Source: Schwartzia succinivorans DSM 10502 (lineage in GTDB: Bacteria > Bacillota > Negativicutes > Selenomonadales > Selenomonadaceae). From it: DNA of 64,000 bases. The stretch's first letter is position 1; each line of letters opens with the position of its first letter. The translations under genes and the position numbers were made by a program. Under the pieces are notes generated by a model. The model saw nothing but the letters and a program-made list of their open reading frames with translations. It was not told the DNA's origin and searched no databases. Location: assembly GCF_900129225.1 (NCBI RefSeq), contig NZ_FQUG01000005.1, forward strand, positions 186,001 through 250,000, in the 5' to 3' direction. Positions 52,983 through 64,000 of the stretch are shown here, piece after piece.

Positions 52983-53567
52983 ATGAAATACATAGACGAT
53001 ATTATTGATTTGCTTCAGCATATAGAAATATCGGCAGATAGGCAGTTTGGCACTTATGATGAGGGAATTTTTGAGATTTTATTATTTCTCAGAGAGTGTA
53101 AAAAAAATCGTAAAGCATTGTTTATTTGTGGGAATGGAGGAAGTGCCGGTATTGCTCAGCATATGACAGGAGATTTTCTAAAGAATGGTGGGTTCAGAAC
53201 TTTTAGCATGTATGGGCAGCCAACAATCACCTGTATATCCAATGATCTTTCTTATGAGTATGTGTTTTGCAAACAATTGGAACTTTTAGCTAACAAAGAT
53301 GATTTATTGATAGCAATAAGCAGTTCGGGAAATTCAGAAAATATTATAAAGGCTGTTAAAACGATAAAAAAGATTGGTGGAAAGGTAATCACTTTTTCAG
53401 GATTCAAATCGGATAATAAGCTAAAGACATTAGGAGATATCAACGTTTATGTACCTGCCGAGCATTATGGAATGGTTGAGTCTATACATAACTTGATATT
53501 GCAGCAACTTGTTGACATTATAGTTGATGAGGATGGAGTTGCGATGAGGTTGAATACAGATGACTAA
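52983..53567 (+). CDS. gmhA: D-sedoheptulose-7-phosphate isomerase
   Basis: SIS-domain isomerase that converts sedoheptulose 7-phosphate to D-glycero-D-manno-heptose 7-phosphate, the first committed step of both ADP- and GDP-heptose routes. Seen: ALFICGNGGSAGIAQHMTGD with phosphate-binding loop and the HxxxD metal ligands, LLIAISSSGNSENI, and a C-terminal VESIHNLILQQLVDI (Glu/His). 194 residues, normal. GGAGGCCGGGG precedes the ATG. It overlaps the next gene by 8 bases. No other gmhA is in the window, so it may also feed the ADP-heptose genes at 5-8 kb. Confidence 0.93.
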   Translation: MKYIDDIIDLLQHIEISADRQFGTYDEGIFEILLFLRECKKNRKALFICGNGGSAGIAQHMTGDFLKNGGFRTFSMYGQPTITCISNDLSYEYVFCKQLELLANKDDLLIAISSSGNSENIIKAVKTIKKIGGKVITFSGFKSDNKLKTLGDINVYVPAEHYGMVESIHNLILQQLVDIIVDEDGVAMRLNTDD

Positions 53568-54762
53568 TAAAATTAAGCAAGCTGTGATTTTGGCGGGTGG
53601 ATTGGGTACTAGACTTCGTCCATTTACTAACGAGCATCCGAAGCCTATGTATAGATTTAATAATAAGCCGTTTATTGAATATCTTGTTGAACAGGTAAAG
53701 AGCTTTGGAATAAAAAAAATAGTTATCTTACTAGGGTACAAGGCGCAGGAAATACAGGACTATCTTGGGGATGGAAGCCGGTATGGCTTGACCATAGAGT
53801 ATAGTGTCACACCTGTTGAGTACGAGACAGGAAACCGACTGCTTGAAATCAGGGATTTATTGGATGATAGATTTTTGCTTATGTATTGTGATAATTATTG
53901 TCCGATAGATTTTGATAAGCTCGTTCGGGATGCATATAAAAATGATGCAGCGATACAAATTACTGCATATACAAATAGAGATAATTATACAAAAGATAAT
54001 CTTTTAATAGCCACTGACGGCAAGGTTGAGGTATACGATAAAAAGCGTGAAACCCTAGGATTAAAAGGCGTTGATATTGGCTATGCAATCATAAAAAAGG
54101 AGACATTGGATTTACTTGATTCAAATTCAGGTATAGTGAATTTTGAGAAAGAAGTATACCCACAATGTGTGGCGCAGGGAGAACTGTTTGCTACTTCAGT
54201 AGAACATAGATATTATTCTATAGGCTCGTGGAATCGTATAGAATTAACAGAACAGTTCTTTTCAGAAAGAAAGACAATCTTTTTGGATAGAGATGGAACA
54301 TTAAATGTTCGGCCACCAAAGGCGTGTTATGTTGAACGCCCGGAAGGATTTGTGTGGCTTCCGGGGGCGAAAGAAGCAATACAAAAACTCAAAGAAAATG
54401 GATACAGATTAATTCTTGTGTCAAATCAACCGGGGATTGCTCGGGGAAATCTGTCAGTAGATACGCTTAATGCGATTCATGATAAAATGCAGGCGGATTT
54501 AAGACAAGAAACAGGCTATGAAATAGATGCAATGTATTATTGCCCACATAATTGGGATGAAGAATGTGAATGCAGAAAACCAAAACCCGGAATGTTGTAT
54601 GAGGCACAGAAAGAGTATTCATTAAATCTTCGGAAATGCATCTTAATTGGTGATGATGAAAGGGATATACAGGCAGGAAAAGCCGCGGGGTGCAAATGCT
54701 ATCAGGTTAAGGATGATAGCAGTCTGCTGGATATAGCTAATAAAATTATTCAAGGGGATTGA
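53560..54762 (+). CDS. Fusion of heptose-1-phosphate nucleotidyltransferase (HddC-like) and GmhB-like phosphatase
   Basis: 400 residues in two domains. Residues 1-230 are a sugar-phosphate nucleotidyltransferase (AVILAGGLGTRLRPFTNEHP, KPMYRFNNKPFIEYL, LMYCDNYCPID, GVDIGYAII). Residues about 240-400 are a HAD phosphatase (TIFLDRDGTLNVRPP, LVSNQPGIARG, zinc loop CPHNWDEECECRKPKPG, LIGDDERDIQAG). By family logic it removes the C7 phosphate from heptose 1,7-bisphosphate and then makes GDP-D-glycero-alpha-D-manno-heptose, two consecutive steps in one polypeptide. Nucleotide choice (GDP) is inferred from its hddA neighbour. Confidence 0.9.
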   Translation: MTNKIKQAVILAGGLGTRLRPFTNEHPKPMYRFNNKPFIEYLVEQVKSFGIKKIVILLGYKAQEIQDYLGDGSRYGLTIEYSVTPVEYETGNRLLEIRDLLDDRFLLMYCDNYCPIDFDKLVRDAYKNDAAIQITAYTNRDNYTKDNLLIATDGKVEVYDKKRETLGLKGVDIGYAIIKKETLDLLDSNSGIVNFEKEVYPQCVAQGELFATSVEHRYYSIGSWNRIELTEQFFSERKTIFLDRDGTLNVRPPKACYVERPEGFVWLPGAKEAIQKLKENGYRLILVSNQPGIARGNLSVDTLNAIHDKMQADLRQETGYEIDAMYYCPHNWDEECECRKPKPGMLYEAQKEYSLNLRKCILIGDDERDIQAGKAAGCKCYQVKDDSSLLDIANKIIQGD

Positions 54763-54765
54763 GCC

Positions 54766-55752
54766 ATGATTATATCGAAAACTCCATTGAGAGCCTCTTT
54801 TTTTGGCGGAGGGACTGATTTCAGAGATTTTTTCGAGACAACTGAAATAGGGTACGGAAGCACGGTCAGTACGGCATTGAATATGTATATCTATATCATG
54901 GTCAATAAAAGATTTGATGATAAGATTCGTATCAGCTACAGGATTCAGGAATTGGTTGATAATGTTGACGAGGTTGAACATAATATCATTCGTGAAGCGA
55001 TGAAGATTGCCGGTGTAGAACGAGGCGTGGATATTGTATATTCTGCGGATATACCAATTAGTTCATCTGGTATAGGCTTAGCTTCATCAAGTGCAATGGC
55101 TGTAGGAGTGCTTAATGCATTATTTGCTTATAAAGGTGTATGTCTGTCCCCGGACAAATTGGCACAGCATGCGTGTGAAATTGAAATTGACAGGTTAAAA
55201 AATCCTATCGGAATCCAGGATCAGTATGCTGTTGCTTATGGGGGATTAAAACGATATAGGTACTATGCATCCGGCGAGGTCAGTGTGGCTAATGTCATAT
55301 GTAAAAAAGAGATTATGGAGATTTTAAAGCGTAGGCTGATGCTTTTTTATACAGGCGTAAACAGAATTTCTTCACATATCCTTAGCGACCAAAAGCAGAA
55401 CATAAAAAAGAAATGTGATGTTTTGAATGAAATGGTAGGAATGGTAGATGAGTCGATAGCTCTTTTGGAACGGGGAGATTTGCATAAATGGGGAGCTATG
55501 CTGGATAAAGCATGGACCTTGAAAAAGCAAATGTCAACGCAGATTTCAACATCATTGATAGATGAAATGTATATAAAAGCAAAAGTTGCCGGAGCCATTG
55601 GTGGTAAGGTTTTGGGTGCTGGTGGCGGCGGTTTTTTGCTTTTGTACGTTCCTGAGGAAAAACAAGAAATTGTTCGAGATGAATTGAGAGAATATAGATT
55701 AGTCAATTTCAATTTTGAAGATGAAGGAAGCCGTATCATATTTATGGAATGA
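54766..55752 (+). CDS. hddA: D-glycero-alpha-D-manno-heptose-7-phosphate kinase
   Basis: GHMP-superfamily kinase that phosphorylates heptose 7-phosphate at C1 with alpha stereochemistry, as in S-layer and capsule GDP-heptose pathways. MIISKTPLRASFFGGGTDF is the HddA-type start; the ATP loop is DIPISSSGIGLASSSAMAVG; KNPIGIQDQYAVAYGG and VLGAGGGGFLLLYVP (motif 3) follow. 328 residues, normal. It begins 3 bases after the fusion gene. It differs in fold from rfaE1 (PfkB family) at 5292, which makes the beta anomer. Confidence 0.93.
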   Translation: MIISKTPLRASFFGGGTDFRDFFETTEIGYGSTVSTALNMYIYIMVNKRFDDKIRISYRIQELVDNVDEVEHNIIREAMKIAGVERGVDIVYSADIPISSSGIGLASSSAMAVGVLNALFAYKGVCLSPDKLAQHACEIEIDRLKNPIGIQDQYAVAYGGLKRYRYYASGEVSVANVICKKEIMEILKRRLMLFYTGVNRISSHILSDQKQNIKKKCDVLNEMVGMVDESIALLERGDLHKWGAMLDKAWTLKKQMSTQISTSLIDEMYIKAKVAGAIGGKVLGAGGGGFLLLYVPEEKQEIVRDELREYRLVNFNFEDEGSRIIFME

Positions 55753-55779: not shown

Positions 55780-56730
55780 ATGCTTATGATATCCGTTATT
55801 ATGCTTACATATAATCGTGCTACTTTTGTAAAAAATATGATTGAGGACATACTGAGTCAATCATATTCAGATTTCGAGTTCATTATAATCGACAATGGGT
55901 CATCTGATAATACGAGAGAAATCCTTAAGCATTACAGGGAAAAAGAATGCAGGATAAAAATTATTGCTATGAATGAACCACATTCCATAGGGTATGCCAG
56001 AAATAGGGGAGTGGAGGCAGCCAGAGGAGAGTATATAGCCTTTGTAGATGATGATGATCGTGTGAAAATAGATTATCTAGAGTTTCTGTTTAATCTTATC
56101 AATGAGAATAAAGCGGATATTTCAATTTCTGGATGTACAGAAGGTGATGGGACTTCCCGTAAGCCACAATGTCTATTTGATGAAAAAATAGTTACAGACG
56201 GTACAGGAGCGGTAAAATTTTTGTTGAAAAGAGATAAAATTAGAGCGGGAATGTCACCTAAATTGTATAAAAGAGAGATATTGCAAAAATATCCTTTTGA
56301 AGAAAATTGTCGAAATGAAGATGTACATACGCAATACAAATATCTTTTAGAAGCAGATAAAGTCGTTATGCATGGTTTGGATAAATATTATTATTTGCGA
56401 CATGGTAGCAATATTTCGGGGTTTACTAGTGATGCGAATCAGTGGAATAAAGAAATTATGACTGATTATCTGCGTGCATACAGGAATCGAACTGAGTATA
56501 TTGAAAAAAAGGCACCCAGCATTGCAAGTTTATCCAGATATTGTGAATGGTCTTTTTGGATTAGCATGGTAGACAAAATCACAAAACATGATTTGAAAGA
56601 CTGTTTGAATATAAAAAATGATTTGGTAAGTAAACTGAACAGTGTCAAAGAAGAATTTTTGAGTCATCCTGAAATAAAAGACTTTGAAAAGAAGTGGATG
56701 GAGGCATACGTGATTAATGGGAATAATTAA
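55780..56730 (+). CDS. Glycosyltransferase family 2
   Basis: GT-A enzyme: ISVIMLTYNRATFVKNMI, FIIIDNGSSDNTREIL, HSIGYARNRGVEAARGEYIA, FVDDDDRVKI (DxD-like) and CRNEDVHTQYKYL (catalytic ED). 316 residues. ATG 55780 follows GGAAGGG closely; ATG 55786 is equally possible. As the first gene after hddA it may be the heptosyltransferase that uses GDP-heptose, but nothing in the sequence proves it. It overlaps the radical SAM gene by 14 bases. Confidence 0.86.
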   Translation: MLMISVIMLTYNRATFVKNMIEDILSQSYSDFEFIIIDNGSSDNTREILKHYREKECRIKIIAMNEPHSIGYARNRGVEAARGEYIAFVDDDDRVKIDYLEFLFNLINENKADISISGCTEGDGTSRKPQCLFDEKIVTDGTGAVKFLLKRDKIRAGMSPKLYKREILQKYPFEENCRNEDVHTQYKYLLEADKVVMHGLDKYYYLRHGSNISGFTSDANQWNKEIMTDYLRAYRNRTEYIEKKAPSIASLSRYCEWSFWISMVDKITKHDLKDCLNIKNDLVSKLNSVKEEFLSHPEIKDFEKKWMEAYVINGNN

Positions 56731-57721
56731 AGAGTCCTTTGATACAAACAGACAAATATTAGGTAAAATATTACCGTTAGATACACCTTTTACTGTAATT
56801 GTTGATGCATCAGAGGTATGTAATCTAAAATGTAATTACTGCTTTCGGTCAGACAGAAATAAAGACAATTGGGGATATGCTAAGGCCCTTAATAAAATGG
56901 AGTGGAATACTTTTGTAAAAATAATTAACCAAATAAAAGAATTTCCACAGTCTGTTAAGCAGATATCATTATCTTGTCATGGAGAACCTTTAACAAATTC
57001 GAATCTTGCTAAGATGGTTTCTCACATAAAGAGTGAGGGGATAAAAAGCAGAGTCTCAATACATACAAATGCGACATTGTTAACAGAAACATACGCGCGA
57101 GAATTGGCGCAGTCAGGAATTGACAGGATAGTTGTTTCCTTACAGGGACTTAATTCTGAAGCATATGAAAGAATATGCGGAGTAAAGATAGATTATAATA
57201 AATTCTATAACAACTTAAAGTTGTTATATGGATATAAGGGCGAAAAAACGCAAATCTATATCAAAATTGCAAATACTGCCCTATGTGAAGGCGAGGAACA
57301 AGAATTTTATGATATGTTCACACCGATTGCCGATAGAGTGTTTATAGAACAGATTGTTCCTATCTGGAAGAATGTTGACAGTGTTGGGGTCAATATGGAT
57401 ATACAGAATAAATACGGGAAAAAATTTAAAAAGCAGAAATGCTGTCCTCTGATTTTTCACACGGTTGTTGTACTGCCGAATGGGGATGTTTATCCATGCA
57501 CGCAGCTGTTATCAGAAGAAAAATTGGGGAATATAAATGATAATAGTCTGTTGCATTATTGGCAATCTGACAGGAGACAGGAGCTGCTAAAACAACAACT
57601 GGAGTTACGGTCGCCTCAAATGTGCGAAGATTGTTCAATTTTGAATAATTCTATTTATTCCGAAGCAGATATGATAGATGAATATAGGTTTGAAATACTG
57701 GGGCGAATGAAGACGAAATAG
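56717..57721 (+). CDS. Radical SAM/SPASM domain protein
   Basis: 334-residue radical S-adenosylmethionine enzyme. The 4Fe-4S cluster motif is CNLKCNYCF (Cys 35, 39, 42), followed by LSCHGEPLTN and the SAM-binding strand region VSLQGLN. The C-terminal SPASM-like region has CCPLIFHTVVVLPNGDVYPC then CEDCSIL, able to hold an auxiliary cluster. Such proteins modify peptides or small substrates, and some occur in polysaccharide clusters without known activity. It lies between a GT2 and an SGNH-type protein and ahead of the adenylation/carrier cassette, so it may make or modify the group loaded there. Confidence 0.87.
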   Translation: MGIIKESFDTNRQILGKILPLDTPFTVIVDASEVCNLKCNYCFRSDRNKDNWGYAKALNKMEWNTFVKIINQIKEFPQSVKQISLSCHGEPLTNSNLAKMVSHIKSEGIKSRVSIHTNATLLTETYARELAQSGIDRIVVSLQGLNSEAYERICGVKIDYNKFYNNLKLLYGYKGEKTQIYIKIANTALCEGEEQEFYDMFTPIADRVFIEQIVPIWKNVDSVGVNMDIQNKYGKKFKKQKCCPLIFHTVVVLPNGDVYPCTQLLSEEKLGNINDNSLLHYWQSDRRQELLKQQLELRSPQMCEDCSILNNSIYSEADMIDEYRFEILGRMKTK

Positions 57722-57737
57722 TAAGAGGTTTTTGACA

Positions 57738-58952
57738 ATGGAGAAAAAGAACTATGCTTGGCCGGTTACGACTATGTGTAAATATGATTATTTGGCGTTA
57801 TGTAAATTTGTGGAAGAAAATGATGTCATTTTGCGCGAGAAGCAGATTGTGATTTTTGGCAGCGGTATTCGTGGCACATCTTTTTCTGTGCAGTTAAAGC
57901 GTTTGGGATATGATGGCTTTATATTTACGGATAATAACCAATCAAAGGTTGGTGGATTTATCAATGAATTTCCGATTGTATCCTATGATGAAATAAAAAA
58001 ACAGCGAGGGCAGGTCGTTATTATTATTTCTGTGGAAGGCGGATTTGCTATTGCCGAGCAATTGAAAAATGATGGTTTTGCAGAGAATAAGGATTTCTTC
58101 TACATAGAAAGTCATCTTTATGAGAACTATGTTCATATCTTTTGCGATAGCACGCCGTGCAAGACTTTGATTATGGGTGACTGTGGTTTGACGGATCTTT
58201 CACTTTCGGATACAGATTTTGAAAACGTAGGAGAAAAACTGCAACGGATTATAAAAGATGGAACAACAAAAGTTCTCGCAATTCATGCTATGGGAATGAG
58301 AGCGTATTACAATATTGCGAAGGCACATATACGCCATATCCACAAGCCTGATAACATCATATTGATGACGAATTTGGAAACCTTTACCGGGAAACAAAAC
58401 TTATTGCCACGTTCGCAGCATGCGCCATTGATTCGTCAGCTGGCAGAGGCTCTTGATTTCAAAGACGAAGGGCTTAATCGATATGCTCAGGTCACGAAAG
58501 AACGGTTTCAAAATTACAAAATGGACTATTTTACTTCTTCGGACGAGGCTATGGGAGGTATGTCCGGAGATAAAAATAATAAAATTGTTATCAAGCTGAA
58601 TTATATGTATCGCATGGATCCGGAAAATGAATGTGTTGTGTATTTGAAAAAATTCATACAGATGTGTGCGGAAAGAAATATACGGTTAATGCTTTTCATA
58701 CCCCCTGCCAATTATCAGTACGCGGTATCTTTGTGGGGGGACAGATTTACTGACAGTTATGAGCAAAATACCGCCTTTTTGAAAAGAGTGGCGGAAGATG
58801 GTAAGGTTCCGCTGCTGGATTTGAGCTATTTACTTCCTTCGGTACTGTTTGCAGACGTTTCAACTATAGATGAGACTGTAAATCAAGAAGGGCGTGAAAA
58901 AGTAGCAGCAGCTATTAATGCCAAATATAAGGAGTTGGCGTTCGATGATTAA
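57738..58952 (+). CDS. Rossmann-like plus SGNH-like protein of unknown function
   Basis: Not assigned to a named family. Residues about 35-125 form a nucleotide-binding-like unit (KQIVIFGSGIRGTSFSVQL, GYDGFIFTDNN, VGGFINEFPIVSYDEI), similar in plan to the N-termini of the genes at 60443, 61889 and 63041. From about 140 an SGNH-like domain may start: KTLIMGDCGLTDLSLSD (GDC/S block I), KLNYMYRMDPENE, RLMLFIPPANYQYA. A clear C-terminal Asp-x2-His was not found; DETVNQEGREKVAAAI occupies that place. Start ATG 57738 has AAGAGG 9 bases upstream. 404 residues; overlaps the adenylation gene by 8 bases. Confidence 0.6.
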   Translation: MEKKNYAWPVTTMCKYDYLALCKFVEENDVILREKQIVIFGSGIRGTSFSVQLKRLGYDGFIFTDNNQSKVGGFINEFPIVSYDEIKKQRGQVVIIISVEGGFAIAEQLKNDGFAENKDFFYIESHLYENYVHIFCDSTPCKTLIMGDCGLTDLSLSDTDFENVGEKLQRIIKDGTTKVLAIHAMGMRAYYNIAKAHIRHIHKPDNIILMTNLETFTGKQNLLPRSQHAPLIRQLAEALDFKDEGLNRYAQVTKERFQNYKMDYFTSSDEAMGGMSGDKNNKIVIKLNYMYRMDPENECVVYLKKFIQMCAERNIRLMLFIPPANYQYAVSLWGDRFTDSYEQNTAFLKRVAEDGKVPLLDLSYLLPSVLFADVSTIDETVNQEGREKVAAAINAKYKELAFDD

Positions 58953-60462
58953 AAATGTGCTGGAATATCTCCAATCTAGTGCGAAAAATTTTCCGAATAA
59001 GGTTGCTTTCGCTGATTCTAATCAGGAAGTGACGTTTTGTGAACTTAATAAAAGAGCATTAGAGCTGGCATGGAAGATTAGGGAACAGTGTGGAGAAGTT
59101 AGAAGGAGGCCTATAGCGGTCTATATGAAGAAAAGTGTAGACTGTATTATTGCTTTTATGGGAATAGCCTATAGCGGCAATTTCTACTCGCCGTTGGATA
59201 TATCTTCACCTCTGGCCAGAAATAATAAAATCCTGGAAGTATTAAAGCCTATGGCGATAATATACGCCCAAGAGGAAAATACTTTGGATGGTTCTTGGGA
59301 AAATATTATACTTCCAAGAGAGATTGATGATAACGTATCCGATATAGACATTTCTCCAATTTGTGATGTAGACCCATTGTATGTGCTATTTACTTCGGGT
59401 TCAACCGGTCAGCCTAAAGGTGTCGTTATAAGTCATAGAAGCGTGATTGATTATGCTGAGTGGCTCGCGGACACTTTTTCCTTTGATGAACATACTGTTT
59501 TTGGTAATCAGGCCCCGTTCTATTTTGATAACTCTATTTTAGATATTTATTCGACTTTAAAGAATGGCGCTGCAACATATATTATTCCTGATATATGTTT
59601 TACATTTCATAAGCAGTTGTTTGCTTATTTGAATGAACATAAGATTAACACTTTGTTTTGGGTGCCCTCAGCGTTGGTTTCAGTTGCCAATGGCAGGGCA
59701 TTGGATGAACTGCATCTTGAGCATTTGGAAAAGGTGCTTTTCTGTGGAGAGGTTATGCCGAATAAGCAGCTGAATATTTGGCGCAAGGCTTACCCGGAAG
59801 TACTTTATGCAAACTTATACGGACCTACGGAAATTACGGACGTTTGCGCATATTATATTGTTGATAGGGAGTTCTCTGATGATGAGCCTTTGCCTATTGG
59901 TGTACCGTGCGCTAATACAGAAATAATTATTTTAGACGAGGACAATAAACCTGTTGTAGGACAGGGATTAGGTGAGTTGTGCGTAAGAGGAACTTGCCTT
60001 TCGCTTGGGTATTATGATAACACGGAGAAAACAGAGTCGGCATTTGTGCAGAATCCACTTAATCCGTATTATCACGATCTTCTCTATCGAACTGGAGATT
60101 TGGTTCGCTTCAATGAGCGTGGAGAGATAGAGTACGTTTGCCGCAAGGATTTTCAGATAAAGTTGCAGGGGCATAGGATAGAACTGGGGGAGATAGAGAC
60201 CGCGACCTTGGCATTGCCAGAGGTAGGACAGGCATGTGCACTTTATGATGAAGAGAAAAAACGCATTGTTTTGATTATATCTTTAATCAATGTCGAAATA
60301 GGGGAAAAGCAGCTTTATCAGCAGCTTAAGGTAAAACTGCCGTGGTATATGTTGCCGGGAAAGATTATATTGCTGGATGAATTGCCTCTAAACCTAAACG
60401 GAAAGGTCGACAGAGTAAGGCTTAGAAGGGAGTATCTGGAGGATGGAACTGGAAAGTCTTAA
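58945..60462 (+). CDS. Amino acid adenylation enzyme (DltA-like, stand-alone)
   Basis: ANL-superfamily ligase that activates a carboxylic acid, probably an amino acid, as AMP ester and loads it on a carrier protein. Core motifs: LFTSGSTGQPKGVVISHRS (A3), FYFDNSILDIYST with the Asp typical of amino-acid-activating enzymes (A4), NLYGPTEITDVCAYY (A5), YRTGDLVRFNERGEIEY (A7), QGHRIELGEIE (A8) and LNLNGKVDR (A10 Lys). 505 residues, the DltA size. ATG 58945 has AAGGAG 10 bases upstream. The probable carrier is encoded at 61594. No DltB/D neighbours, so the acceptor is unknown. Confidence 0.9.
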   Translation: MIKNVLEYLQSSAKNFPNKVAFADSNQEVTFCELNKRALELAWKIREQCGEVRRRPIAVYMKKSVDCIIAFMGIAYSGNFYSPLDISSPLARNNKILEVLKPMAIIYAQEENTLDGSWENIILPREIDDNVSDIDISPICDVDPLYVLFTSGSTGQPKGVVISHRSVIDYAEWLADTFSFDEHTVFGNQAPFYFDNSILDIYSTLKNGAATYIIPDICFTFHKQLFAYLNEHKINTLFWVPSALVSVANGRALDELHLEHLEKVLFCGEVMPNKQLNIWRKAYPEVLYANLYGPTEITDVCAYYIVDREFSDDEPLPIGVPCANTEIIILDEDNKPVVGQGLGELCVRGTCLSLGYYDNTEKTESAFVQNPLNPYYHDLLYRTGDLVRFNERGEIEYVCRKDFQIKLQGHRIELGEIETATLALPEVGQACALYDEEKKRIVLIISLINVEIGEKQLYQQLKVKLPWYMLPGKIILLDELPLNLNGKVDRVRLRREYLEDGTGKS

Positions 60463-60742
60463 TAAGTACTTGGAAGAATTGCGTGGGGCAGATGTTATCC
60501 TTTATGGGGCTGGATCAAAAGGAAAACAGGCAATTGAGCTTTTGCGTCGCTATGGTGTTGAACCTGCAGCCATCTGCGATTCTGATAGAAACAAGTGGGG
60601 TCGGAATTTTGAGGGGATGGAGATAGAAGACTACAATACTGTACGCTCACGTTTGACAGGGAAGGTATTTATGCTGTTGACAGTTTCCAGCAGATTTGCA
60701 CGTGAAATAAAAACAGTCGTCCGCGGGGGGGGGACATCGTAA
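60443..60742 (+). CDS. N-terminal part of a phase-variable FkbM methyltransferase
   Basis: 99 residues with a Rossmann-like unit (ADVILYGAGSKGKQAIELL, GVEPAAICDSDRNKWG, FEGMEIEDYN). The frame runs through a G9 tract (60725-60733) and stops 9 bases later at TAA 60740-60742. With ten or seven G the frame would continue as GGDIVKQLCIPFKTEVELL into the methyltransferase at 60772, giving 379 residues with ten G, almost the length of the intact paralogue at 61889 (378). So this is the front half of one gene in the OFF state, not an independent gene. It overlaps the adenylation gene by 20 bases. Confidence 0.8.
   Translation: MELESLNKYLEELRGADVILYGAGSKGKQAIELLRRYGVEPAAICDSDRNKWGRNFEGMEIEDYNTVRSRLTGKVFMLLTVSSRFAREIKTVVRGGGTS
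60725..60733 (+). repeat. G9 homopolymer inside the FkbM gene (slippage tract)
   Basis: Nine consecutive G within coding sequence, the only such tract seen in the island. Nine G gives a stop shortly after; ten or seven G fuses the two reading frames. It is a typical simple-repeat contingency tract. Confidence 0.85.
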
Positions 60743-60771
60743 AGCAGCTTTGTATACCATTCAAAACAGAG

Positions 60772-61581
60772 GTGGAACTCCTTTCAGATGCGGAAATGAT
60801 GACTTGTTGGGAAGAGTTGGAAGAGGCTTACGAATCTTTGGAGGATGATATTTCCCGTCAAGTGTTTGAGAAAACAGTGGGATATAAAGTGACTGGAGAC
60901 TATTTGCCGCTTTTTGATTATCTTGAGACAAATGAACCAAATCTTGGTTTTTTTGATACAGAATTATTCCCGAAGAGACGTGATCATGTGTATGTTGATG
61001 TAGGGGCGTTTACGGGAGACAGTTTGCTCAGCTTTGCTATGGCCGTACGCGGATCTTATAAAGAAATTGTGGCGTTTGAAGGAGACAAAGGGATATATAA
61101 ATCTCTTTGCGATATGTTGACTTATGCCCGATTGCCTCATGTTACTACGGTAAATAAGCTTTTGTTTAGCGGGGCTGAAGAAAAAGAGTGGCACTCGATT
61201 CGAAATAATCAGAATATTCTCTTTGACTCCCCGAATCTTTATGGAAAAGCAGAAGTCATTTTTAGCAGCAGGGAGGCTGTTGCCCGTGGACCAGTTAATT
61301 TCATGACGGAAAGGGTTTATACAGATACACTGGATAATAGTTTGCAGGTTAGCCCAACGGTGTTGAAAATTAATGCAATGGGGGCGGATTTTGATATTCT
61401 TAAGGGGGGAAGAAAGCTTATCAGACAGTGCCAGCCAATGCTTTGCTTGGAATTCGGCGTTAGAAAGCAGGACGTTGGCAGATTGATTCCGCTCATCAAG
61501 GATATTAATCCGAATTATCGGTTTTATATGCGAGTGAAAGAGATATACGGAGATTTTAAAACAGTACTCTATGCAGTGTAA
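60772..61581 (+). CDS. C-terminal part of a phase-variable FkbM methyltransferase
   Basis: Carries the SAM-dependent methyltransferase domain of the FkbM family: HVYVDVGAFTGDSLLSFAMA (SAM loop), EIVAFEGDKGIYKSL (acidic loop end), VYTDTLDN, VLKINAMGADFDILKGG (the usual K-D-EG-x-E region, here with NAMGAD) and MLCLEFG. A GTG at 60772 could start it, but it has no good ribosome site and the open frame extends back to the G9 tract, so it is read best as the back half of the gene starting at 60443. Methylates a sugar hydroxyl or an intermediate; substrate unknown. Confidence 0.82.
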   Translation: MELLSDAEMMTCWEELEEAYESLEDDISRQVFEKTVGYKVTGDYLPLFDYLETNEPNLGFFDTELFPKRRDHVYVDVGAFTGDSLLSFAMAVRGSYKEIVAFEGDKGIYKSLCDMLTYARLPHVTTVNKLLFSGAEEKEWHSIRNNQNILFDSPNLYGKAEVIFSSREAVARGPVNFMTERVYTDTLDNSLQVSPTVLKINAMGADFDILKGGRKLIRQCQPMLCLEFGVRKQDVGRLIPLIKDINPNYRFYMRVKEIYGDFKTVLYAV

Positions 61582-61593
61582 GAGAGGTGCAGA

Positions 61594-61836
61594 ATGGACA
61601 GTTATAAAGAGAAAGTTAAGGAACTTATCCATGATATAGAGGAATATGAAGATTTTGAAGATGATACGGATTTGTTACAAAAAGGCATTATGAAGTCGCT
61701 TTGCTTCATGTATGTTGTTACGGAACTGGAACACGAATATGGCTTTACATTTCCTGAGGATGAGCTGGACATAAAGAACTTCGATACGGTTGAACATATT
61801 GCGAAGCTGGTAAAATCATTAGTGGATTCTAAGTAG
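61594..61836 (+). CDS. Acyl/peptidyl carrier protein (DltC-like)
   Basis: 80-residue acidic four-helix carrier. The phosphopantetheine Ser is at residue 35 in GIMKSLCFMYVVTELE, where Asp of the usual DSL is replaced by Lys; FTFPEDELDIKNFDTVEHIA matches the second half of carrier proteins. It is likely loaded by the adenylation enzyme at 58945. It stands between two FkbM methyltransferase genes. GAGAGG lies 7 bases before the ATG. Confidence 0.88.
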   Translation: MDSYKEKVKELIHDIEEYEDFEDDTDLLQKGIMKSLCFMYVVTELEHEYGFTFPEDELDIKNFDTVEHIAKLVKSLVDSK

Positions 61837-61888: not shown

Positions 61889-63025
61889 ATGTTGTTTCGC
61901 GATTATGTTAATAAAACTTTTTCAGAAGAGAATAGAATACAGAATGATGAATTAGACATGCTGAGAAAATCGGAGCTTCCATGTGTAGTCTATGGAACTG
62001 GATTTCGCGCGAAAATGCTGACTGAGCATTTATCAGCGAATGGAATTACAATTAACTCGTATTCGGAGAGCAGTCAGTTTTGGCGCGAAGGCAAGACGTT
62101 TATGGGGAAGGCGGTTGTCAATGCGGAAAATTTAAATCAACTGTATGATACTTATAATTTGGTTATCGGTTGCAGCGGAGCATCAATGGCTGACAATATT
62201 GCTGTTTTTTTGCGGAATCCAACTATTGGTCATGTCTTTTTTTTCGAAAAATTTATGATTCCCTGCGAAATATCCTATGAATGGGTTATAAAACATTTGG
62301 ACGAATTAGATGAAACCTTTAAAATGTTGGAAGATGATGAATCGAGGACTGTATTTTTGTCATATATTCAATCTCATGTGGAATGCTTAAATACTGATAT
62401 TCCGCCTTTGTGGTCATTGTGCCGTAAAGCACAATACTTTAATGAACTGTATCGGTTTAAAAATTTCCCTCAGCATGCTTTGTTGGACGGGGGTGGTTTT
62501 GTTGGTGATACCGCGGAAGCTTTTTTAGATTTTGTTGCAGATGAAGTAAAACCTAAGGCTGTATACTCATTTGAACCGGATGAAGATAATTATTCTAAGA
62601 TTGTGACTGTCGCCAAACGATACAACGATATTTATGCATACAATTATGCTTTGGGGGAGACTAACGGTGAAACGTTTTTTGAAATGGGAAATCTATCCAT
62701 GTCAAAAATAACATCGCAATCGGCAGGCGAACGTATTCGGGTTGTTTCGGCGGATACTATAATAGGTGATAAACAAATTTCTTTTGTTAAGCTGGATTTA
62801 GAAGGCGGAGAGATGGATGCTCTGCGCGGTATGAAACGTATTATATCTGAGCAGATGCCGTTTTTGGCTATTTGTGTTTATCATAGAACAGAAGATTTGA
62901 TTACAATACCACAGTATATAAGAACTTTGGCAAAAGATAATAATAGAGCGGTGCGGTATAAATATTATCTACGTCATCATGATATTCAGCCACATGAAAC
63001 GGTATTCTATGCTGTGCCGGTTTGA
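61889..63025 (+). CDS. FkbM family methyltransferase with N-terminal Rossmann-like domain
   Basis: 378 residues, intact paralogue of the split gene at 60443. N-terminal unit: LPCVVYGTGFRAKMLTEHLS, YSESSQFWREGKTFMG, YNLVIGCSGASM. Linker helix region around DETFKMLEDDESRTVF, which resembles LEDDISRQVF of the split gene. Methyltransferase domain (about 205-378): ALLDGGGFVGDTAEAFL, VYSFEPDEDNYSKI, ISFVKLDLEGGEMDALRGM (canonical FkbM motif, intact here) and FLAICVYHRTEDL. AAGGAG is 9 bases before the ATG. It probably methylates a residue of the polysaccharide or the carrier-bound group. Confidence 0.88.
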   Translation: MLFRDYVNKTFSEENRIQNDELDMLRKSELPCVVYGTGFRAKMLTEHLSANGITINSYSESSQFWREGKTFMGKAVVNAENLNQLYDTYNLVIGCSGASMADNIAVFLRNPTIGHVFFFEKFMIPCEISYEWVIKHLDELDETFKMLEDDESRTVFLSYIQSHVECLNTDIPPLWSLCRKAQYFNELYRFKNFPQHALLDGGGFVGDTAEAFLDFVADEVKPKAVYSFEPDEDNYSKIVTVAKRYNDIYAYNYALGETNGETFFEMGNLSMSKITSQSAGERIRVVSADTIIGDKQISFVKLDLEGGEMDALRGMKRIISEQMPFLAICVYHRTEDLITIPQYIRTLAKDNNRAVRYKYYLRHHDIQPHETVFYAVPV

Positions 63026-63040
63026 GAAAGAGGTCATTAA

Positions 63041-64000
63041 ATGAAAATAGCTATATATGGAGCAGGAGAAGTAGGGCAAGGCTGTTGTCAAAATCTGCTC
63101 CGTGCGGGAATCCAGCCAGAGGCTTTTTTTGACCGTAGGGCAAGAAAAGGGGAAGAGTGCTTGGGTATACCACTTTTGCAGGTTGATGAATATTCTGATT
63201 CGAAGCATTCTGATACTATTGTAATTATCGCGTTGGCGGATGGTCTTTTACACAAGGAGGTCGCTGATAAGCTCTGTTCTAAAGGATTTCAAAAACTGGT
63301 GTTCCTGCCAATCGCCTATGATATGCCAACGAGGTTAAAGACGAAACTCACGATTCTTTATAATGAGTATCTAGAGGGACGTGTTACTGGAGTGGTTCAA
63401 GATTACGGACGCTATGCAAAAGAATCGTTCTTTGAGGCAGGACAGGCTGTGGCAAGTGCAGGTATTGATAAAGTTGTGGTATGGGTCCCGTTGGAGATTG
63501 TTTATACAGAAAGTTTAGAGCATTGGCCGGGAGATAAAAATAATTTGCATTCGCCGTATGCTTATTATGATAGGAATATCGCAACCAATTATTGGATGTT
63601 GAATCTTATACGCTATTTCCAAGGCATGGATGGCTCTTGTGACTTATATCTCAGTATGTATGAGCGAAATGGTGGAGCAAAGCCGAATATAGAAAAACGC
63701 CGTTTGCAGTTTGAGTTGTTCGAACACGAATATAGCTTTGGGATGGAATTTTTTATTCATAGTGCGCCTGAGGCTATGTGGAATGAAAGAGGATATTTTA
63801 ATATTGTTGGGGGAAACCATCGCATTATGTATTTATATGCAAAGGGATGTCGATATTTTCCTCTAAAAATTAGCAGGAAAGATTTTTGCAAGTGGCAGGG
63901 TATGGAAGCTGTAACCCCTGATTTGATTGAGAGAATTACATACCCTATATCGCATCCCGCCTTTCAGTATGTAATTGTACATGGAGTGGGGGAGATATAT
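63041..64000 (+). CDS. Rossmann-like plus ParB/sulfiredoxin-like protein of unknown function (3' partial)
   Basis: Open for 320 codons to the window edge, without a stop. N-terminal unit: MKIAIYGAGEVGQGCCQNLL, GIQPEAFFDRRARKGEECLG, SDTIVIIALADGL, the fourth such module in a row of neighbouring genes. The second half includes FNIVGGNHRIMYLYAKGCRY then FPLKI, a GNHR-x-x-x-x-x-x-KG pattern like ParB/sulfiredoxin-fold domains found in some glycan clusters. No methyltransferase motif is visible so far. AGAGG precedes the ATG; it starts 15 bases after the FkbM gene. Function unknown. Confidence 0.7.
   Translation, partial: MKIAIYGAGEVGQGCCQNLLRAGIQPEAFFDRRARKGEECLGIPLLQVDEYSDSKHSDTIVIIALADGLLHKEVADKLCSKGFQKLVFLPIAYDMPTRLKTKLTILYNEYLEGRVTGVVQDYGRYAKESFFEAGQAVASAGIDKVVVWVPLEIVYTESLEHWPGDKNNLHSPYAYYDRNIATNYWMLNLIRYFQGMDGSCDLYLSMYERNGGAKPNIEKRRLQFELFEHEYSFGMEFFIHSAPEAMWNERGYFNIVGGNHRIMYLYAKGCRYFPLKISRKDFCKWQGMEAVTPDLIERITYPISHPAFQYVIVHGVGEIY

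Follow-up and report, generated by a model that had tools for sequence, protein, structure and literature searches.

A candidate phase-variable FkbM-family gene split by a poly-G tract in a surface-polysaccharide cluster of Schwartzia succinivorans

The window analysed here, a stretch of 64,000 nucleotides from the genome of S. succinivorans DSM 10502, contains a gene of a surface-polysaccharide cluster in which a run of nine G residues divides a two-domain protein between two reading frames. We read this split gene as a contingency (phase-variable) gene of the surface-glycan cluster that was caught in its OFF state and whose frame would switch reversibly, and we assign this reading a probability of roughly 0.6. 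It is well supported, at the level of sequence comparison, by homology across the tract, by the fact that the only two G9 runs that the genome has in coding sequence both fall in FkbM genes, and by ON and OFF states among tract-bearing genes of relatives. Against it stand the facts that nine residues are few for an unstable tract, that such a run is not improbable by chance, that MutS is present, and that the FkbM signature of the gene is degenerate.

The split gene and its genomic surroundings

The upstream frame starts with the ATG at 60443, enters the G9 tract and ends shortly behind it, its 99-residue product having the C-terminus ...TVVRGGGTS. The FkbM frame, which is open across the tract, comprises 291 codons without a stop from 60706 to its end at 61581. 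Re-reading of the sequence agrees with a previous sequence-only reading in both respects. That reading had also proposed that the two frames, when joined over the tract, give 379 residues that match the neighboring paralogue of 378 residues, and this was borne out by a BLASTP alignment, which spans both proteins end to end, the homology continuing from one side of the tract to the other (89 of 392 positions identical, or 23%; E 6e-13). Judged by this homology to the paralogue, the homopolymer lies within the coding frame of what corresponds to a single protein and leaves its two parts in different frames.

Domain analysis likewise recovered the order that had been described for both the joined protein and the paralogue, a Rossmann-type unit followed by FkbM. 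The match of the 5' part to PF02629 is weak (E 3e-4) and slightly under the gathering score; the 3' part matches both PF05050 (E 3e-8, 34.3 bits against a cut-off of 22.7) and TIGR01444 (45.6 bits against a curated cut-off of 37.7). In the solved structure 2PY6 (profile match with E 6e-37) a single chain carries both domains. A structure prediction for the paralogue puts the place equivalent to the tract close to the loop that leads into the final strand of the first domain, in a part where the model is weak; judging from this model, changes of tract length by whole codons would probably be tolerated by the protein.

Table 1. Coordinates of the split gene, its neighbors and other features (positions in the window unless a locus is named)
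Feature	Location	Strand	Remarks
Heptose-nucleotide genes	52983..55752	+	GmhA-like isomerase, nucleotidyltransferase-GmhB-like phosphatase fusion, HddA-like kinase; every profile score under curated equivalog cut-offs
Free-standing amino-acid adenylation domain protein	58918..60462	+	Shares 20 bases with the start of the split gene
5' part of the split gene	60443..60742	+	99-aa frame, Rossmann-type domain, TAA 60740-60742
3' part of the split gene	60706..61581	+	Open frame with FkbM domain; signature KINAMGAD
G9 tract at the frame junction	60725..60733	+	Context GTCCGC-G9-ACA
Small carrier protein (phosphopantetheine attachment)	61594..61836	+	12 bases past the split gene
Intact FkbM paralogue	61889..63025	+	Two-domain plan as in the joined protein; without a G tract
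Small Rossmann-type domain copies	60443-60720, 63041-63300; L162 308-600, 1753-2050; L163 12020-12300, 13219-13500; L164 4132-4400, 5556-5800		
Promoter-like G-run sites	L009 1493-1524 (G000:C14:139708); L013 1493-1524 (G000:C16:65733); relatives L165-L194		

According to the proposed mechanism, replication slippage in the tract would shift the reading frame. With nine G residues translation would end after the N-terminal Rossmann-type domain of 99 residues, and a tract that is one base longer or two bases shorter would give the full protein with both domains. The length of the tract would have to change at an appreciable rate, and the full protein would modify the glycan made by the cluster. 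In the OFF state 850 bases would be left untranslated, and through polarity the next genes, those for the carrier protein and the second FkbM protein, may then be less strongly expressed.

The gene is a probable source of a sugar-methylating enzyme of the surface-polysaccharide cluster. Its 3' part is an FkbM homologue as judged by profile, and FkbM methyltransferase activity is not assured, because the signature KxDxEGxE is replaced by KINAMGAD, residues that align opposite KMDIEGSE of 2PY6. Among 53 homologues with a recognizable motif the D is kept in 52 and the E in 51, and the other FkbM genes of the genome keep the signature wherever the motif was found. Six FkbM genes of the genome exceed the TIGR01444 cut-off, and among them the split gene scores lowest. 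This degenerate signature suggests that activity has been changed or lost: the product of the ON state is perhaps no ordinary methyltransferase, or the gene is decaying, and it may be losing its function after having been switched off. Of what the sequence-only reading had proposed, the poly-G contingency gene in its OFF configuration has gained from the in-frame G9 FkbM gene elsewhere in the genome and from ON and OFF orthologues in the family, while its supposed effect on methylation of the polysaccharide has been weakened.

Within the polysaccharide cluster, positions 56717-61836 and their surroundings bring together two FkbM genes with genes for a radical SAM/SPASM protein, an adenylation domain and a free carrier protein, a combination suggesting that an activated, modified amino acid is attached to the glycan. 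The small Rossmann-type domain of the split gene, with the pattern YGAG...G...D.D..K.G...G..V, recurs in the genome as a fusion partner of many different enzymes of glycan clusters, among them FkbM, radical SAM proteins, glycosyltransferases and unknowns.

Campylobacter, Helicobacter and Neisseria are the classical cases of phase variation by poly-G tracts. The closest match in kind is cj1426 of Campylobacter jejuni, a poly-G phase-variable gene for a capsule heptose 6-O-methyltransferase that switches at about 2e-2 (PMC8437040). In both, a methyltransferase gene carries a poly-G run and belongs to a surface-polysaccharide cluster with heptose genes, with ON/OFF switching by frameshift (proposed in our case), but in C. 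jejuni the rate has been measured and the substrate is known, whereas the present case is described from sequence; the likeness is one of gene kind, and the FkbM signature is degenerate in the split gene. Helicobacter canadensis has several methyltransferase genes with tracts of G9-G13, G9 included, whose length varies in reads (PMC2823697). Some of these are frame-shifted in the assembly, as is the split gene, but length variation was seen there in reads and the split gene is known from an assembly. In Bifidobacterium breve UCC2003, a non-pathogenic bacterium of the gut, a G run within a pilus gene, a gene of another kind, also joins or splits two reading frames, and its lengths were measured by maximum depth sequencing (PMC9187656). 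A full-text literature search found no description of phase variation or homopolymer switching in Selenomonas, Negativicutes or Veillonella. The split gene therefore adds to a known type of switch, that of cj1426, and the pattern across the family, including the promoter-like class described below, is the more novel part.

Competing readings of the split

Instead of being a switch, the frameshift could have inactivated a redundant FkbM copy irreversibly, in which case the altered motif would be part of the decay of a fixed, broken gene. The degenerate motif, the lowest TIGR01444 score and the intact paralogue nearby are all in keeping with such a history, as is the outcome of the search for orthologues: no close relative of the FkbM half was found among 200 related genomes, and none was found in GTDB contigs by peptide-pattern search or in phage records and viral contigs, so that these searches yielded no second strain or orthologue carrying the split gene. 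The adenylation domain did give relatives at 80 loci, all from other groups and at most 59% identical, which are uninformative on the tract. However, the 3' frame retains 291 codons with neither a stop nor an additional frameshift, and its third-position GC is coding-like (0.33, equal to that of the neighboring gene); these features speak against long decay. The break also falls exactly at the G9 run, and the other tract-bearing FkbM gene of the genome is intact. On balance we regard decay as rather unlikely.

An error of sequencing or assembly, with a true tract length that is in frame and a gene that is intact, appears improbable. Long G runs are prone to error in several technologies (PMC9187656), the assembly is a draft in 20 contigs, and the joined protein is full length. 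Yet the assembly also contains the second FkbM gene with nine G, and there the frame is kept; moreover, an OFF state requires no error, because frames broken at such tracts are seen in further genomes of the family. Even if an error had been made, the tract would remain a candidate for a switch. Slightly less probable still is that the split gene works in its present form, with translation reinitiating beyond the TAA so that each domain is made as its own protein, or with the frames bridged by slippage of RNA polymerase or the ribosome on the G run. Transcriptional slippage can arise at homopolymers, and reinitiation is conceivable at a GTG (60772) that lies in the FkbM frame 30 bases past the stop, but by eye no convincing ribosome-binding site is properly spaced from it, and the paralogue, the sister G9 gene and 2PY6 all hold both domains in one chain. 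The phase-variable reading is the one that we prefer for the split gene.

G tracts elsewhere in the genome and in relatives

Rarity of a G9 run in the window was considered as evidence and rejected, since 23 of 100 dinucleotide shuffles of the 64-kb window contain at least one. Placement in FkbM genes is more telling than occurrence. The genome (2.66 Mb in a 20-contig draft) has three runs of at least nine G in total; both coding ones sit in FkbM genes, of which the genome has six over the family cut-off plus one weak match, and the third lies in repeat-rich sequence outside any convincing gene. For either of the two further G9 runs to lie in an FkbM gene in the sense orientation, the probability is about 0.002, a figure calculated post hoc. 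The second coding run (G000:C13:214294-214302; L163 11295-11303) is in frame within an intact Rossmann and FkbM gene of a second glycan cluster, and because its signature is intact (KLDCEGAE) this gene is a better switch candidate than the split gene. Loss of mismatch repair was rejected as a cause of the tracts because MutS is encoded in the genome.

Shorter in-frame runs were also seen. A phage-tail-like gene (G000:C15:297447-297454; L012 1501-1508) carries GTCCGC-G8 with the flank of the FkbM tract; a search for viral versions of it that are nearly identical but differ in tract length returned only relatives of 44-48%, without the tract. In-frame G8 runs occur in long, repetitive surface-protein-like genes at G000:C13:406534 (L008) and C20:39005 (L014).

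Runs of at least ten G are present in 99 of 151 genomes of the bacterial family, and 64 distinct tracts from these family genomes were read individually. Genes with such tracts include those for TonB-dependent receptors, TylF-type methyltransferases, a glycosyltransferase and adhesin-like products (G10-13), as well as a subtilase autotransporter; the frame is kept in some and broken in others. In genes resembling TonB-dependent receptors, and in related exported genes, the G10-13 run stands directly after or inside the signal peptide. Orthologous receptors share the signal MKKRHLTLA(V/I)LAGLL, the G run and then QTSVYAGHDENLQS, and are in frame in L054 and L060 and out of frame in L313; L062, a relative of the receptor in L054 and L060, is in frame. 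A similar pair is L308, in frame, versus its relative L306, out of frame, so that ON and OFF states are both present among related tract-bearing genes. L056 (13 G) and L310 (12 G) have near-identical flanks and are both in frame, and out-of-frame tracts were further read in L057, L206 and L061 and in the TylF genes L070 and L322. Sense runs of at least eight G occur in 8 of 45 distinct cases of FkbM genes from relatives versus none of 30 tRNA synthetases (p 0.019). One FkbM gene of another genus (L019) also contains GTCCGC-G9-ACA, but some 20-25 residues earlier in the protein than in the split gene, and, given this difference in position, its tract was probably gained independently.

Inverted repeats flanking the tracts (TGTCC...GGACA) were considered as promoters of slippage; their excess over re-paired flanks is weak and was matched by 9 of 300 shuffles, they are no general feature of the tracts, and the idea was dropped. 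A run of more than 1000 G in the assembly of one relative (L067, G034:C9) is evidently an assembly artefact.

More tentatively, the G9 tract of the split gene may be an element of a family-wide poly-G contingency system with a sequence grammar of its own, in which coding tracts and a promoter class would vary the translation and transcription of surface functions. The coding side would comprise tracts in TonB receptors, adhesins and glycan enzymes, a subset of them flanked as GTCCGC-Gn; on the promoter side, the G run would set the spacer length in promoters of glycan genes and of genes for flagellin, S-layer porin and two-partner secretion. Should the tracts be unstable, clonal variation would be expected in the surface glycan, in receptors and perhaps in flagellin, with effects on phage sensitivity and immune recognition, and assemblies would have to be read differently, as genes called pseudogenes may be switches.

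A promoter-like class of G runs

Two G8 runs of the genome lie outside genes and share the context TGTCTTGC-G8-ACA-N7-TATRAT. In 151 family genomes TGTCTTGY-G6 has 109 matches versus one for the reversed pattern; it is also found, more thinly, in other families of the class. The full pattern is TGTCTTGY-G6-11-ACA-N4-TGN-TATAAT. In 26 of 32 sites read, ten bases separate a -10 box from the end of the G run, an extended TG is frequent, and the mean score of the box is 5.19 of 6 versus 3.56 in shuffled sequence. The spacer counted from TTGYGG is usually 16 or 17 bases and mostly 15-19, a range that arises because the run may have anything from 6 to 11 G. Genes downstream include those for flagellin, an S-layer-homology porin, secretion proteins of the ShlB (two-partner) type and a sugar transferase. 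Matches in viral contigs were scattered over many unrelated-looking contigs and were set aside as background.

By its sequence features the TGTCTTGY-Gn motif looks like a promoter class in which the G run serves as spacer, and phase variation at the level of transcription may be its function. The same appearance would be given by an ordinary strong promoter whose spacer happens to be rich in G. In Neisseria meningitidis porA the G tract lies inside the promoter of a surface-protein gene (PMC3639595). The putative class is comparable with it in principle, having a G tract within the presumed promoter of surface-protein genes, but the candidate class differs in its shared TGTCTTGY flank and fixed-distance -10 box in many genes and genera, and in being described from sequence. 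Such a class predicts that expression depends on the length of the G run, with an optimum near a spacer of 16-17 bases. Orthologous sites of the class differ in run length, with G9 in L190 versus G8 in L192.
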